From: Mesocricetibacter intestinalis
GTDB lineage: Bacteria; Pseudomonadota; Gammaproteobacteria; Enterobacterales; Pasteurellaceae
Length of the DNA stretch: 64,000 nucleotides
Reading direction: 5' to 3'
Assembly (NCBI RefSeq): GCF_004363295.1
Contig: NZ_SNYQ01000002.1
Coordinates: 311,409-375,408 of the forward strand
Both the position numbers and the translations under genes were made by a program. The notes under the pieces were generated by a model that worked only from the letters and a program-made list of their open reading frames with translations, did not search any database and had not been told where the DNA came from. The first letter of the stretch is position 1. Every line of letters starts with the position of its first letter. Shown piece after piece: positions 13,988-27,147 of the stretch.

Positions 13988-15001
13988 TTAGCCGCCGATA
14001 GTGGCTAAATTACGGCGGATACCGCTGTCGCCTTCATGTAAGAAATGATGTTCCCGTTTGCCCTGCAGTGCGGAAAACAGTCTTGCCTGCAAAGCGAGCT
14101 GCTGTTGTTCCGATTGCAGCATATCTCTTAATTCAATCCCTTCCTCACCGAACAGACAAAGATGCAATTTACCTTTGGCAGAAACCCGCAGCCGATTGCA
14201 ACTGGCGCAGAAATTCTTCTCATAAGGCATAATCAAACCGATTTCACCAAGATAATCAGGATGGCGAAAGACCTTGGCCGGCCCATCCGTATGCCCTTTT
14301 TCCTGTAATTGCCAGCCGTCTTCCAGTAATTGGCGGGCAAGTACCTGTCCGGAGATATGTTGATTGCGGAAAAACTCGTCCATTTCGCCGGTTTGCATCA
14401 GTTCGATAAAGCGCATCTGGATCGGTTTATCCTTAATCCAGGCTAAAAAGCGGCTAAATTCCTGAGCATTTAAATGTTTCATCAACACGGAATTAACTTT
14501 AATTTTCTGATAGCCGCAGGCAAAAGCTTTATCTATACCCCGCATTACCTCATGAAACTTGTTTTCGCCGGTAATACTATGAAACATACCCGGATCCAGA
14601 CTGTCGACGCTAACATTGATGGAGCTGATCCCCGCTTGTTTCCAGGCGGCCACATCCTTTTCCATTCGATAACCGTTGGTAGTCAGCGCCAATTGTTTAA
14701 TCCCTTCGATTTGTGCAATATTTTCCGCAATTGCGAGAAAATCTTTGCGCAGCGTCGGTTCTCCGCCGGTCAGACGTATCTTTTGTGTTCCCATGGCGGC
14801 AAAAGCCTTAGCAAGAAGGCGGATTTCATTTAGATTGAGAAATTTTTCCCGGCCGGAATCGGGACGATATCCCTGCGGCAAGCAATAGGTACAACGAAAG
14901 TTACAAACATCCGTGATTGACAGGCGCAAATAATAATATTCCCGCCGAAAAGGATCGATTAAACGCGCGCCGGCGACGTTTTTGATTGGAATTTGGTGCA
15001 T
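13988..15001 (-). CDS. moaA: GTP 3',8-cyclase (radical SAM)
   Basis: The 337-residue enzyme carries the radical-SAM cluster motif CNFRCTYC (Cys33, Cys37, Cys40) and a second C-terminal cluster site in CASCNRLRVSAKGKLHLCLF. It ends in Gly-Gly, as functional MoaA does. It rearranges GTP to the 3',8-cyclo intermediate used by MoaC. TGGEPTLRKD and the STNVSVD-like segment SINVSVDSLD are typical. It is first in the moaACDE unit, with a roughly 170-base structured leader that may regulate it. The ybhK-like gene is divergent, the same neighbourhood as in E. coli. Confidence 0.97.
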   Translation of the reverse strand: MHQIPIKNVAGARLIDPFRREYYYLRLSITDVCNFRCTYCLPQGYRPDSGREKFLNLNEIRLLAKAFAAMGTQKIRLTGGEPTLRKDFLAIAENIAQIEGIKQLALTTNGYRMEKDVAAWKQAGISSINVSVDSLDPGMFHSITGENKFHEVMRGIDKAFACGYQKIKVNSVLMKHLNAQEFSRFLAWIKDKPIQMRFIELMQTGEMDEFFRNQHISGQVLARQLLEDGWQLQEKGHTDGPAKVFRHPDYLGEIGLIMPYEKNFCASCNRLRVSAKGKLHLCLFGEEGIELRDMLQSEQQQLALQARLFSALQGKREHHFLHEGDSGIRRNLATIGG

Positions 15002-15180
15002 TTTGATACCTTTCTAAATACGAGAGGATAAGTCGTTTCCCACATTATCCCTGAGCAATAGATATTATTGCTGGCATTGCCGCCGTATTTTTTCACATCG
15101 GATAAAAACTTAGGCTGACAAGCTCGGTACACAGTTGAAATTGGGTTTATTGTAAAAGACTCGTTGGCCATACACAACCT
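15002..15180 (-). promoter_or_regulatory. Structured moaA leader, candidate molybdenum-cofactor riboswitch
   Basis: The 345-base gap 15002-15346 holds no gene; its moaA-proximal half can form competing structures. On the minus strand GGATAA (15050-15045) can pair with TTATCC at 15031-15026 close to the ribosome site AGAAAGG, or with TTATCC at 15105-15100 further upstream. A 7-bp hairpin AGCAATA / TATTGCT and a CCGAGC / GCTCAGG pairing are also mutually exclusive. Moco RNA elements are known before moaA in gammaproteobacteria. I matched position and switching logic, not the consensus. Confidence 0.4.
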
Positions 15181-22455: not shown

Positions 22456-22998
22456 CTATTTCTTTTTAGGGGCAAGCACCATCACCATCTGTCGGCCTTC
22501 GAGTTTACCCGGTGCGGATTCCACCACCGCTAACTCTGCCAGATCGTTTTTAATTCGTTCCAGCATTTCAGTGCCGATTTGCTGATGAGCCATTTCACGA
22601 CCGCGAAAACGTAATGTAATCTTAGTCTTATCCCCATCTTCTAAGAAGCGAATCAGGCTGCGTAGTTTTACCTGATAGTCGCCTTCATCAGTACCGGGAC
22701 GGAATTTGATTTCCTTCACCTGTACAACTTTCTGCTTTTTCTTCTGCTCTTTTGCCGTCTTACTCTTTTCGTAAAGGAATTTCCCGTAATTCATAATACG
22801 GCACACCGGCGGTTCTGCGTTAGGGCTAATCTCAACCAGATCCAGTGAAGCCTGTTCGGCCATATCCAACGCTTGTTGAATTGATACGATACCCGCCTGT
22901 TCACCCTCTTGGTCAATCAGACGAACCTCTTTCACTCTAATCTCTTCATTAATACGATTAGGACGATTAGCCACCGGGGCTTTTTTTAGGGTTTTAAT
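22456..22998 (-). CDS. infC: Translation initiation factor IF-3 (AUU start)
   Basis: IF-3 binds the 30S subunit and rejects non-standard start codons. The recognised protein runs from [20 protein letters not shown] to VMVLAPKKK, with the N domain, the Lys-rich linker [13 protein letters not shown] and the C domain [10 protein letters not shown]. The first usual start in frame is a GTG at 22974, but similarity extends upstream. Starting at the ATT at 22998 (ATT AAA ACC, after AGAGGAAC) gives 180 residues, the E. coli length. E. coli infC also starts with AUU for IF-3 autoregulation, so I choose ATT. An adjacent ATT at 23001 is possible. Confidence 0.93.
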
Positions 22999-23227
22999 AA
23001 TATTGTTCCTCTAGTAAGTTTATCCGCTATCCTGCTGCGGCGCAGAAGATAAAAGCTTGCTCCAAGCGAGCAAAAACGCGGAAAATTTTAATGGATTTTT
23101 GCTGATTATGCAATTGAATTTAATGCTTGCAGCCAATAAAAAGCACAGGGAAGGTATTTTTTTAGTTGAGGCGAAACAATATCGCACTATCGGCAAAGAA
23201 TAAGCTTAGGACGGAGTAAACATAAAA

Positions 23228-23250
23228 TTGCCGTTCACAAGGAACGGCAA
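23228..23250 (-). terminator. Terminator of the PEBP gene
   Basis: A 9-bp stem TTGCCGTTC / GAACGGCAA with loop ACAAG; TTTTA follows on the minus strand, 25 bases after the stop. Confidence 0.75.
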
Positions 23251-23274
23251 AAGAAAGCAAGCATAAGCGAGAAA

Positions 23275-23916
23275 TTATTTAGAATCGTAGGTTCCCACTA
23301 AATAAGCCTGATCAAGGATATGTCCCTGCATGGCGAAATGCAGATCATTATAGCGGAATCCCGGTTTTAAATTGAGCTTGGTATCCAACGCATACACATA
23401 AAGCTCGTAACGATGGGGTTTATTCGGTGGTGCCATGCCGCCGTAGCCGGAAGCTTCTTTAATCGAAAGGTTATTGATTTTACTGGCCCAGCTGTTTGCC
23501 CCCTGAACGAAATCCTTAGCGGAAATACTTTCGTTTTCCTTCACGGAAGTACGTTCCAAATCGGCGATTAGCCAATGGGTCCAGACAAATCCCGCCACTT
23601 CCGCCGCATCTTTATCTTCAAAAACCACAGCGAAAGATTTGGTGTTTTCAGGGGCGTTTTTTATTTCGAAAGGAATGGAATAAGAAGGCATACCGTTCGG
23701 GCTGAATTGGGTACCGCGTTTACCGAATTTATCCGCAAATTTGCCGTCCACAATGGCGGAGCTGGTTACTTCCATGGCTTTATCCTGAATATGGATCATA
23801 ATGTCCTTATCCTCCGGCAGATTATTCTGCACCGCCGCCGAACCGAGTTGGGGGAACAGCAGTGCGGATAATGCCAAAGCCCCTACGCCGCGAAGCGTTT
23901 TTTTGATACTTTTCAT
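23275..23916 (-). CDS. YbhB/YbcL family (PEBP-like) exported protein
   Basis: The 213-residue protein has a cleavable signal peptide (about residues 1-28, ending GSAA), then a phosphatidylethanolamine-binding-protein fold. Typical bacterial PEBP segments are FSPNGMPSYSIPFEIKNAPENTKSFAVVFEDKDA, FVWTHWLIADLE, GYGGMAPPNKPHRYELYVYALD and DLHFAMQGHILDQAYLVGTY. AAGGAGAT precedes the start. The E. coli relatives YbhB and YbcL are periplasmic or cytoplasmic with poorly defined roles; a uropathogenic YbcL suppresses neutrophil migration. It sits between infC and the ADP-ribosylglycohydrolase gene, in what is a thrS-infC junction in enterobacteria. Confidence 0.88.
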   Translation of the reverse strand: MKSIKKTLRGVGALALSALLFPQLGSAAVQNNLPEDKDIMIHIQDKAMEVTSSAIVDGKFADKFGKRGTQFSPNGMPSYSIPFEIKNAPENTKSFAVVFEDKDAAEVAGFVWTHWLIADLERTSVKENESISAKDFVQGANSWASKINNLSIKEASGYGGMAPPNKPHRYELYVYALDTKLNLKPGFRYNDLHFAMQGHILDQAYLVGTYDSK

Positions 23917-23996
23917 AGATCTCCTTATCTTTTTAGCTAAAAAAATCCTATCCTTAAGTCAAGGACATTTATTTAGACGAAAAACGAACAAAAATC

Positions 23997-24893
23997 TTAC
24001 AATCGATTCTGAATAAGACCAAGGGCAAGCTGCTCTATATCCGCTTTCCGGTATAGCACCTCAAGCCAAGGGGAGGGAATATTCTCCACCCCGTAATAAG
24101 CGCCGGCAATCTGACCGCAAATGGCGGCATTGGTATCCGCATCATCACCCAAGTTAGCCGCAGCCAAAATCGCCGCACGGAAATTATCCGTATGCCAAAA
24201 GGCCCAGAGTGCCGCTTCCAAACTGTCAATAACATAACCGGCACTGCCCACTTGATCAGCGCACTTGGTTTTAAACAGTCCTTGGCAAATGTGCGTTAAT
24301 GGCTCAAAACGTAGGGCGTCATTGTCTTCAAACAGATTTTGTTTTTTTCTGCCGGCAAAAATACGTGAAATCAGCAAAGCGAAATATTCACAGGATTGAA
24401 CCGCTTCCTGCGAAGCATGGGTGGTTTTAGAGCTTAATCCGGCGTATTTCACCATTAATTCCGGCGCTCGATGATAAAAAAGCAATACCGGAATCAAACG
24501 CATTAGCGAACCGTTGCCGGAGTAGCGGGACGCGGTATTTAAACTATAGGGCCTAGGTTTTTTTCTAAATTCTCCCAGTGCCATTGCCACCTGTTTTCCC
24601 ATACCGAAAGCTCTGTCCAAGCTGGAGTTTATCCCCGTACTTGCCCACTGATAATAGCGCTGTAACTGATCGTAGGGGTCAAATCCGTTTTTAGCGATTA
24701 AACTTTCGGCCAGGCAAATGGCCATGGAAGTATCGTCCGTCCATTTTCCTTTTGCCAGACGGAACTTCCCCCCGCCCTGCATATCGGTTAAGGGCTTAAA
24801 ACGCGTTCTGGGCAAAAATTCCACCCGCGCCCCTACCGCATCACCGCAAGCCAAACCCAAAAAAGCGCCGACGGCTCGGGCTTGTATATCCAT
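23997..24893 (-). CDS. ADP-ribosylglycohydrolase family protein
   Basis: The 298-residue protein belongs to the DraG/ARH family, which removes ADP-ribose from proteins or small molecules with a di-magnesium centre. The metal-binding motifs are present: AFLGLACGDAVGARVEF, KWTDDTSMAICLAESL and NLGDDADTNAAICGQIAGAYYG. Catalytic competence therefore looks intact. No ADP-ribosyltransferase partner is visible nearby, so the substrate is unknown; a housekeeping role in removing ADP-ribose marks or in nucleoside metabolism is possible. It lies between thrS and the PEBP gene, all on the minus strand but separated by terminators. Confidence 0.9.
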   Translation of the reverse strand: MDIQARAVGAFLGLACGDAVGARVEFLPRTRFKPLTDMQGGGKFRLAKGKWTDDTSMAICLAESLIAKNGFDPYDQLQRYYQWASTGINSSLDRAFGMGKQVAMALGEFRKKPRPYSLNTASRYSGNGSLMRLIPVLLFYHRAPELMVKYAGLSSKTTHASQEAVQSCEYFALLISRIFAGRKKQNLFEDNDALRFEPLTHICQGLFKTKCADQVGSAGYVIDSLEAALWAFWHTDNFRAAILAAANLGDDADTNAAICGQIAGAYYGVENIPSPWLEVLYRKADIEQLALGLIQNRL

Positions 24894-24950
24894 CTCTTTT
24901 TCTCTCTTCCGGTAAATTAAATATATTTACCTATTTACCTATATAGAAAA

Positions 24951-24974
24951 AACCGCACTACATAAAGTGCGGTT
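24951..24974 (-). terminator. Terminator of thrS made of uptake sequences
   Basis: AACCGCACT / AGTGCGGTT form a 9-bp stem with loop ACATAA, and a T run follows on the minus strand after the thrS stop. Confidence 0.8.
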
Positions 24975-24991
24975 GTTTTTCGGCGAGTTTT

Positions 24992-26923
24992 TTAGGCTTC
25001 GTTCAGTAGCTTCAGCGCGCGGTTTCTAACCTGATTTTTCAGAATTTCAATAAATTCGTCCACATTGTAGGAACCGAGATCTTGGCCTTTACGGGTACGA
25101 ACCGCCACTTTACCCGCTTCGATTTCCTTATCGCCGCATACCAGCATATAAGGAACGCGACGTAGGGTATGTTCGCGAATTTTGAAACCGATTTTTTCAT
25201 TACGTAAATCCGATTTCACCCGCAGTCCCGCATCGGATAGTTTTTTTACGACCTGACTGACATAATCGGACTGAGAATCGGTGATATTCATCACCACCGC
25301 CTGCACCGGCGCCAACCAAGGCGGGAAGAAACCGGCATATTCTTCGGTGATGATACCGATAAAGCGCTCGATGGAACCTAAAATCGCACGGTGGATCATA
25401 ACCGGGGTTCTGCGTTCGTTATCTTCCGCCACATAGGAAGCGTTTAAACGGCCCGGTAAGGCAAAGTCAAGCTGTACCGTACCGCACTGCCATTCGCGAT
25501 TCAGGCTGTCGCGCAGGGCAAATTCCAGTTTAGGCCCGTAGAAAGCGCCCTCGCCTTTCTGTACTTCATAAGCCAGATTGTTATGGGCCAGAGCTTTGGC
25601 TAAGTCCGCCTCGGCGCGATCCCACATTTCATCGGAGCCGATACGTTTTTCCGGACGGGTGGACAATTTAACGTAAATATCGGTAAAGCCGAAGGTGCTG
25701 TAAATATCGTACACCATACGGATACAGGAGGTTACTTCGCTTTCAATTTGATCTTCGGTACAGAAAATATGAGCGTCGTCCTGCGTAAAACCTCGTACCC
25801 GCATTAATCCGTGCAATGAACCGGAAGGTTCGTTACGGTGGCAGGAACCGAATTCCGCCATACGCAGCGGCAGATCGCGATAAGATTTCAAGCCCTGATT
25901 AAAAATTTGTACATGGCCCGGGCAGTTCATCGGTTTAATCGCATATTCGCGGTTTTCCGATGAGGTGGTAAACATCAAATCGCCGTAATTCTGCCAATGT
26001 CCGGTACGTTCCCATAATACGCGGTCCATCATAAAAGGACCTTTTACTTCCTGATAGTCGTATTCTTTCAGTTTGGTGCGTACGAAGGTTTCCAGTTCGC
26101 GGAAAATTGTCCAGCCGTCGTTATGCCAGAAAACCATGCCCGGCGCTTCTTCCTGCATATGATAGAGATCGAGCGCTTTACCGATCTTACGATGATCCCG
26201 TTTCGCCGCTTCTTCCAGACGTTGTAAATATTCGGCCAGCTGTTTTTTATCCGCCCATGCGGTGCCGTAGATACGCTGTAACATTTTATTTTTGCTGTCG
26301 CCGCGCCAATAAGCCCCTGCGACTTTCTGCAATTTAAAATGCTGACAGAAACGCATATTCGGCACATGCGGGCCGCGGCACATATCGATATATTCCTGAT
26401 GATGATATAAGGCCGGACGGGCGTCTTTTGCAATATTTTCATCCAGAATCGCCATTTTATAAGGCTCGCCGCGTTTTTCGAAAGTATCGCGCGCTTCTTG
26501 CCAGCTAACCGGTTGTTTTATTACCTCATAATTGGTCTTCGCCAGTTCGTGCATACGTTTTTCCAGTGCATCCAAATCTTCCTGGCTTAAAGAGCGGTCC
26601 AAATCCACATCATAATAGAAACCGTTTTCAATGGTCGGCCCGATGGCCATTTTTACATCGGGGAAAAGTTGCTTAATCGCATGGCCCAGCAAATGTGCGC
26701 AGGAATGACGGATAATTTCCAGACCGTCTTCATCTTTGGCGGTAATGATTTCTAAACTGCTGTCCTGTTCGATTAAGTCGCAAGCGTCGCGACGAACGCC
26801 GTTTACACGGCCGGCAATGGTGGCTTTGGCAAGGCCCGCTCCGATATTCTGCGCCACTTCCAGTACGGTAACGGGTTTATCAAACTGACGCTGAGAGCCG
26901 TCAGGTAAAGTTATAATTGGCAT
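24992..26923 (-). CDS. thrS: Threonyl-tRNA synthetase
   Basis: The 643-residue class II synthetase charges tRNA-Thr. Domains are TGS (1-62), the editing domain with the [10 protein letters not shown] metal-like motif, the catalytic core with [10 protein letters not shown] and [25 protein letters not shown] (motif 2), and the C-terminal anticodon-binding domain ending LPGWLAPVQ-like [11 protein letters not shown]. Length matches E. coli (642). The leader carries two hairpins that look like anticodon arms, so autogenous translational control is likely. Unlike in E. coli, infC does not follow directly: two unrelated genes and separate terminators lie between. Confidence 0.98.
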
Positions 26924-26942
26924 GTTAAATCCTTATACAGTG

Positions 26943-26963
26943 GTAACCCATACGCAAGGTTAC
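26943..26963 (-). promoter_or_regulatory. thrS translational operator, anticodon-arm mimic next to the start
   Basis: On the minus strand GTAACC and GGTTAC pair around the loop TTGCGTATG. A T-G pair would leave a 7-base loop with CGT, a threonine anticodon, in the anticodon place, about 29-31 bases before the ATG. The AAGGA ribosome site follows directly. This matches domain 2 of the E. coli thrS operator, where ThrRS binding blocks the ribosome. Confidence 0.7.
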
Positions 26964-27024
26964 TTGTTTTGATGAAAAAGTTTTGCTTTATCCGCAAGGG
27001 GGTTATCCGTTGCGCCGAAATAAA

Positions 27025-27047
27025 ACAAGGGATACGCAATCCCTTGT
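27025..27047 (-). promoter_or_regulatory. thrS operator, upstream anticodon-like hairpin
   Basis: ACAAGGG and CCCTTGT pair around the loop ATTGCGTAT, which shares TTGCGTAT with the start-proximal hairpin. It lies about 110 bases before the ATG and would correspond to domain 4 of the E. coli operator, letting a ThrRS dimer bind both arms. Confidence 0.65.
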
Positions 27048-27147
27048 GATAAAGCCTGAGTCGAAGTGCCGAAGGCACCTTACTTGTGATTACACCCACA
27101 ATTGTGTAATAAAAGTGCGGTTATTTTAACATATTTTTTCTCAGATG

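Follow-up and report, generated by a model that had tools for sequence, protein, structure and literature searches.

The leader of thrS in the window (the whole stretch of 64,000 nucleotides analyzed here) appears to carry the thrS operator known from E. coli in its Pasteurellaceae form, with two arms, D2 and D4, that would mimic the anticodon arm of tRNA-Thr (a probability of roughly 0.85, based on sequence comparison). The gene encodes a threonyl-tRNA synthetase (ThrRS) with 80% identity to that of E. coli, and its ATG lies at position 26923 of the minus strand. A sequence-only reading of this DNA had proposed that the leader keeps a ThrRS operator of the E. coli type in the form of two hairpins 5′ of that ATG, one proximal to the start (26943-26963) and one upstream (27025-27047), with a shared loop. 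Both hairpins exist and the retention of the operator is well supported by the conservation of D2, its invariant loop bases, compensatory change in its stem, and the conserved residues of ThrRS, but only the proximal hairpin belongs to the operator. The upstream hairpin is an intrinsic-terminator-like element and not an operator arm. As judged from its relatives, the second arm of the window leader is instead the hairpin with a UGU loop at 27089-27110, about 40 bases upstream of the terminator-like hairpin and outside the region covered by the sequence-only reading (Table 1).

Table 1. Features of the thrS locus and its leader in the window
Feature	Position	Strand	Basis
infC, PEBP-like gene, ADP-ribosylglycohydrolase	22456-24893	-	downstream of thrS
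thrS, threonyl-tRNA synthetase, 643 aa	24992-26923	-	ORF and full-length match to E. coli ThrRS 1qf6
Shine-Dalgarno AAGGA, domain 1 equivalent	26930-26934	-	sequence reading
D2-like anticodon-arm mimic GUAACCU-UGCGUAU-GGGUUAC	26943-26963	-	R1 match and covariation
Long-range stem GCUUUAUC/GAUAAAGC	26985-27055	-	predicted pair probability 0.99
U-run TTTATTT after terminator-like hairpin	27018-27024	-	sequence and terminator scan
Terminator-like hairpin, stem ACAAGGGAU/AUCCCUUGU, loop UGCGU, then UUUAUUU	27025-27047	-	terminator scan
Small hairpin GUGCC-UUC-GGCAC, between D4 and terminator-like hairpin	27066-27078	-	this leader only
D4-like anticodon-arm mimic, stem AUUACAC/GUGUAAU, loop AAUUGUGG with UGU	27089-27110	-	R2 and covariation
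Predicted extended -10 promoter element TATGTTAAAAT of thrS	27123-27133	-	motif conserved in relatives

The thrS leaders compared here come from 140 genomes of the Pasteurellaceae, from further genomes of the order, and from E. coli, and it should be noted that leaders within one genus are not independent in the family counts given here. On this comparative evidence, the proximal hairpin is homologous to domain 2 of the thrS operator in E. coli. A 7-bp stem closes a 7-nt loop in which CGU occupies positions 34-36, and 19 nt separate the hairpin from the thrS ATG. It was recovered, ungapped, in all 95 aligned Pasteurellaceae leaders and also aligned ungapped in E. coli and most other families. 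Across 68 distinct ungapped sequences, 99.0% of cells were paired, compared to 27-43% in slid controls, and compensation was extensive, with 106 cells altered on both sides and 7 of the 10 pairs involved (0/500 shuffles). The sole invariant loop bases are G35-U36 (68/68), while base 34 is C in 91 of the 95 Pasteurellaceae leaders and G, A, or U elsewhere; a fixed G35-U36 and a free base 34 are what tRNA-Thr identity, which resides in positions 35-36, would predict. The ThrRS of the window is identical to that of E. coli at N575, R583, E600, and R609, which we take to be the anticodon contacts of the E. coli enzyme, and at the neighboring residues.

A covariance model of D2 (R1), built from sequences that included the window's own leader, matched the window at 26934-26969, a span that takes in the lower stem (53 bits, E 1.7e-14 within the window), and across the whole genome this thrS site was the only match. 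Searched against 80 named thrS loci, R1 matched 34 just before the start codon, ranging from Aggregatibacter to Shewanella with a few members of other gammaproteobacterial orders, and matched none of the loci named as betaproteobacterial. A class-wide sample yielded matches in 58 of 229 genomes, and in every genome matched outside the window's order (56/56) the match lay 3-20 nt upstream of thrS, on the strand of the gene. The thrS operator is a textbook example of an mRNA that mimics a tRNA, and the covariation observed here extends its range through the Pasteurellaceae into other gammaproteobacterial orders. An Rfam scan of the window leader, with T-box and Thr leader included, returned no match and the E. 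coli thrS leader is likewise without one, such that R1 could serve as a model for this operator.

The second arm was located with a model (R2) derived from relatives with 7-nt loops, the window not among them, whose best match in the window leader is 27087-27112 (18.3 bits). Counterparts occur at the same place in most of the Pasteurellaceae with the loop A-U-N-G-U-R-G, where the constancy of GU is no evidence because GU was part of the search pattern, and where N (anticodon base 34) is U, G, or A, and never C. Covariation was pronounced both for arms with 7-nt loops (94.0% paired, 49 double changes, 0/500 shuffles) and for those with 8-nt loops (93.9% paired, 28 double changes, 0/500 shuffles). 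The upstream arm of E. coli also presents UGU in its loop (TAGC-ATTTGTTG-GCTA, the loop being taken from the sequence itself), and R2 alone did not find this arm. Most of the 12-17 bit matches of R2 in other families land on D2, which is in keeping with both arms mimicking one thing. In one leader (L008, genome G115) D2 and D4 have the identical apex CCCATTGTTGGGG, though the arms differ in relatives; it looks as if one arm had been converted to the other or had converged on it, and the shared apex is an independent sign of one protein reading both.

The position of D4 is further defined by a predicted promoter. Among 35 leaders for which D4 had been found without use of the promoter, the motif TGnTAnWAT occurs 19-25 nt before the D4 loop in 27 and at 34 nt in 2 more, compared to 1 of 422 control windows. 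With the predicted -10 element just before it, D4 would be close to where the transcript begins, which is also its place in E. coli. When the whole leader was folded with 41 coding bases, the probability of D4 was only 0.15 due to displacement by long-range pairing; in shorter, co-transcriptional leader fragments D4 folds. The fold of the 181-nt leader is more stable than dinucleotide shuffles (z -2.96), with only a moderate signal for the 130-nt core (z -1.94).

The predicted long-range stem of the window leader encloses the terminator-like hairpin together with another hairpin (26993-27014), and has no counterpart in the leaders of relatives. When compared by eye, the window has more sequence between the U-run and D2 than the nearest leaders (L081, L082, and L092). 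U-rich stretches are seen in the linker, a candidate counterpart of the single-stranded domain 3, to which the window adds predicted hairpins between D4 and D2. Large inverted repeats, each in a single species, were observed between D4 and D2 in three leaders (L118, L110, and L106), suggesting that the inter-arm stretch tolerates insertions. The small hairpin of the window (GGTGCCTTCGGCACTT) was considered as a repeat and rejected, as the genome has only one other copy, which is imperfect. A neighboring family (f27; L038-L040, L043, L046, and L143-L147) has kept D2 in a short leader, apparently without D4. One further genome (G067) has a partial duplication, with two thrS-like starts separated by about 6 kb. 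Each start has a leader operator of its own (L069 and L071), and the second (C15:28339-28827) lies in an open frame of only 207 aa.

Compared to the E. coli thrS operator with its domains 1-4 (PMC9976931, PMC3858243), D2 lies directly upstream of the Shine-Dalgarno sequence in both, the stem, internal loop, and CACTG flank of D2 are alike, a second anticodon-like UGU arm is located nearer the 5′ end in both, the ThrRS contact residues are the same, and the predicted promoter is just upstream of D4. Unlike E. coli, most Pasteurellaceae have a terminator-like element in the interval from D4 to D2, mostly with uptake sequences around D4, and the window has a long extra inter-arm stretch. In E. 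coli, ThrRS represses its mRNA by binding the arms and blocking ribosome loading (PMC3858243, PMC9976931). By analogy, a free ThrRS dimer would bind D2, through CGU beside the Shine-Dalgarno sequence, and D4, through UGU near the 5′ end, and would block 30S loading on the thrS mRNA. Uncharged tRNA-Thr would compete for ThrRS and the repression would be lifted. Binding and repression by the ThrRS of the window would follow the E. coli precedent. What the comparison shows directly is the conservation of the arms, the limits on their sequence, where they stand with respect to the predicted promoter and the start codon, and the conserved ThrRS residues.

The element between the promoter and D2 appears to be specific to the family and would make this operator a variant of the E. 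coli form. Terminator-like structures were sought in this interval with an energy scan for hairpins abutting a U-run; an earlier compact scan, limited to loops of ≤8 nt, found them in 28 of 77 leaders against 1.7 expected and missed the cases with D4 at the apex. Among distinct Pasteurellaceae leaders, 61 of 73 have a hairpin of ≤ -9 kcal/mol before a U-run, where shuffling predicts 5.0, and 50 of 73 reach ≤ -12 kcal/mol, where 0.8 would be expected. D4 is itself the apex of the terminator-like hairpin in 46 leaders, in which the lower stem usually consists of inverted DNA uptake sequences; elsewhere, window included, the two are separate. These inverted pairs of AAGTGCGGT or ACAAGCGGT followed by a U-run resemble the known uptake-signal terminators of the Pasteurellaceae (PMC1852404), but unlike typical examples they lie in a 5′ leader, downstream of the predicted promoter of thrS itself, with a tRNA-Thr anticodon mimic at the apex. 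The stem of the window differs again in that it is not an uptake sequence.

There is about an even chance that these structures have no regulatory role, and that they either end the upstream gene or represent long D4 stems followed by the U-rich linker used for ribosome loading. Terminators made of uptake sequence pairs are common in the Pasteurellaceae (PMC1852404), and the ribosome-binding site of E. coli thrS is U-rich upstream of the hairpin (PMC3858243). Additionally, the gene upstream of thrS in the window is grxB (Glutaredoxin 2), which is co-directional, so that the terminator-like hairpin could simply serve grxB and the window alone leaves the question undecided. As such terminators are common, leaders with divergent upstream genes were compared, and 12 of 17 have a structure of ≤ -12 kcal/mol, compared to none (0/14) at the starts of other divergent genes in the window. 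The structures are also downstream of the conserved -10 element, which argues against service to the upstream gene. When the letters of the linker were shuffled against a fixed outer stem, a U-run abutted the stem in 8.0 of 32 leaders by expectation and in 23 as observed, a placement beyond what linker composition explains. The structures are also rarer in other families, where 3 of 36 leaders reach ≤ -12 kcal/mol.

Attenuation on top of translational repression is a plausible model for these leaders. It is proposed tentatively, at somewhat less than even odds, that transcription ends prematurely in the leader as part of the control, perhaps with the help of ThrRS bound to nascent D4. The broader form of this proposal is slightly more doubtful: that D4 in the Pasteurellaceae is built into or beside a terminator, that ThrRS would control its gene twice, through termination at D4 while the leader is nascent and through a block of ribosome loading at D2, and that uptake sequences supply the stem in many species. 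Should the terminator prove regulatory, a tRNA mimic that binds a synthetase would also act as an attenuator of transcription in Gram-negative bacteria. A search of the leaders for an antiterminator identified no clear candidate and no conserved alternative pairing. One pairing, between the 3′ arm of the terminator plus the U-run and AAAACAAG 5′ of D2, is perfect in the window and was rejected, being absent in three relatives (L007, L092, and L024). A literature search for transcriptome data covering the thrS leader of any Pasteurellaceae species found none.

The upstream hairpin of the window has a dG of -12.1 kcal/mol as a simple hairpin, and its resemblance to D2 is the 8-mer TTGCGTAT, which occurs at 26950-26957 and 27032-27039. 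Five copies are present in the 64-kb window against 3.2 expected (about 2.5e-5 per position), and the chance of a second copy within about 100 nt is around 0.003, a value calculated post hoc. Homologues of this hairpin bring the set to eight distinct leaders (the window, L081, L082, L092, L007, L019, L015, and L103, with L095 identical to L092 here), in all of which the stem and U-run are kept and the loop varies. The second copy of the 8-mer is not kept by relatives, and CGU is present in the window alone.

It is improbable that the terminator hairpin of this species has gained a third, lineage-specific ThrRS loop through which the terminator is stabilized or blocked directly. The CGU loop equals D2 over 8 bases and the loop of L092/L095 has UGU, but a threonine anticodon in 2 of 8 homologous loops is, by estimate, close to chance for short loops, and the register is unlike that of D2, with CGU one base off-centre here and at positions 34-36 there. 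More improbable still is that the proximal and upstream hairpins are the two ThrRS arms with TTGCGTAT kept by selection. A shared 8-mer in both loops is unlikely so close by chance and the L092/L095 hairpin does carry UGU, but the homologous hairpins retain the stem and not CGU, the upstream CGU is off-centre, and the D4 model is silent at 27025-27047 while it scores 18.3 bits at the better-conserved arm at 27087-27112. The sequence-only reading had argued that different stems with the same loop imply selection on the loop, and the upstream hairpin, with its terminator-like U-run, has the reverse pattern. Of the compensatory stems around a fixed CGU that it anticipated, D2 has the compensation and a fixed GU, while base 34 varies and the upstream loop is not kept. 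Relatives that lack the shared loop, which it named as contrary evidence, are thus found for the upstream hairpin and not for the proximal one.

A T-box or leader-peptide attenuation is extremely unlikely. In Firmicutes thrS is a classic target of T-box control, and the window leader does contain a terminator-like element, but the Rfam scan found neither class in the leader and no run of threonine codons occurs between the promoter and the terminator. In both systems a leader terminator could conceivably respond to a signal of threonine supply; a T-box binds tRNA, whereas the window leader would, on the E. coli model, mimic tRNA to bind the synthetase.

The gene order in the window is thrS, ADP-ribosylglycohydrolase, PEBP-like gene, infC, rpmI, and rplT, all on the same strand. 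The sequence-only reading held that thrS is no longer next to infC, and, unlike in E. coli, two genes do lie between them and a terminator follows thrS, but infC shares the strand of thrS and follows it at a distance of about 2 kb. The probable start of infC is an ATT near 22997, and the PEBP-like protein has a signal-peptide-like start. Among 131 Pasteurellaceae genomes, infC is directly after thrS, within 700 nt, in at least 14 and within 6 kb in at least 34 more, both lower bounds as only near-looking matches were entered. An uptake-sequence terminator (AACCGCACTTTATGTAGTGCGGTT and a U-run) is located directly after thrS at 24945-24980 on the minus strand, and given this terminator thrS is probably monocistronic in the window. 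Elsewhere in the window, a molybdenum/tungsten cofactor riboswitch (RF01055, 80.1 bits) occurs at 14991-15141 on the minus strand, adjoining the start of the ORF at 13988-15001.
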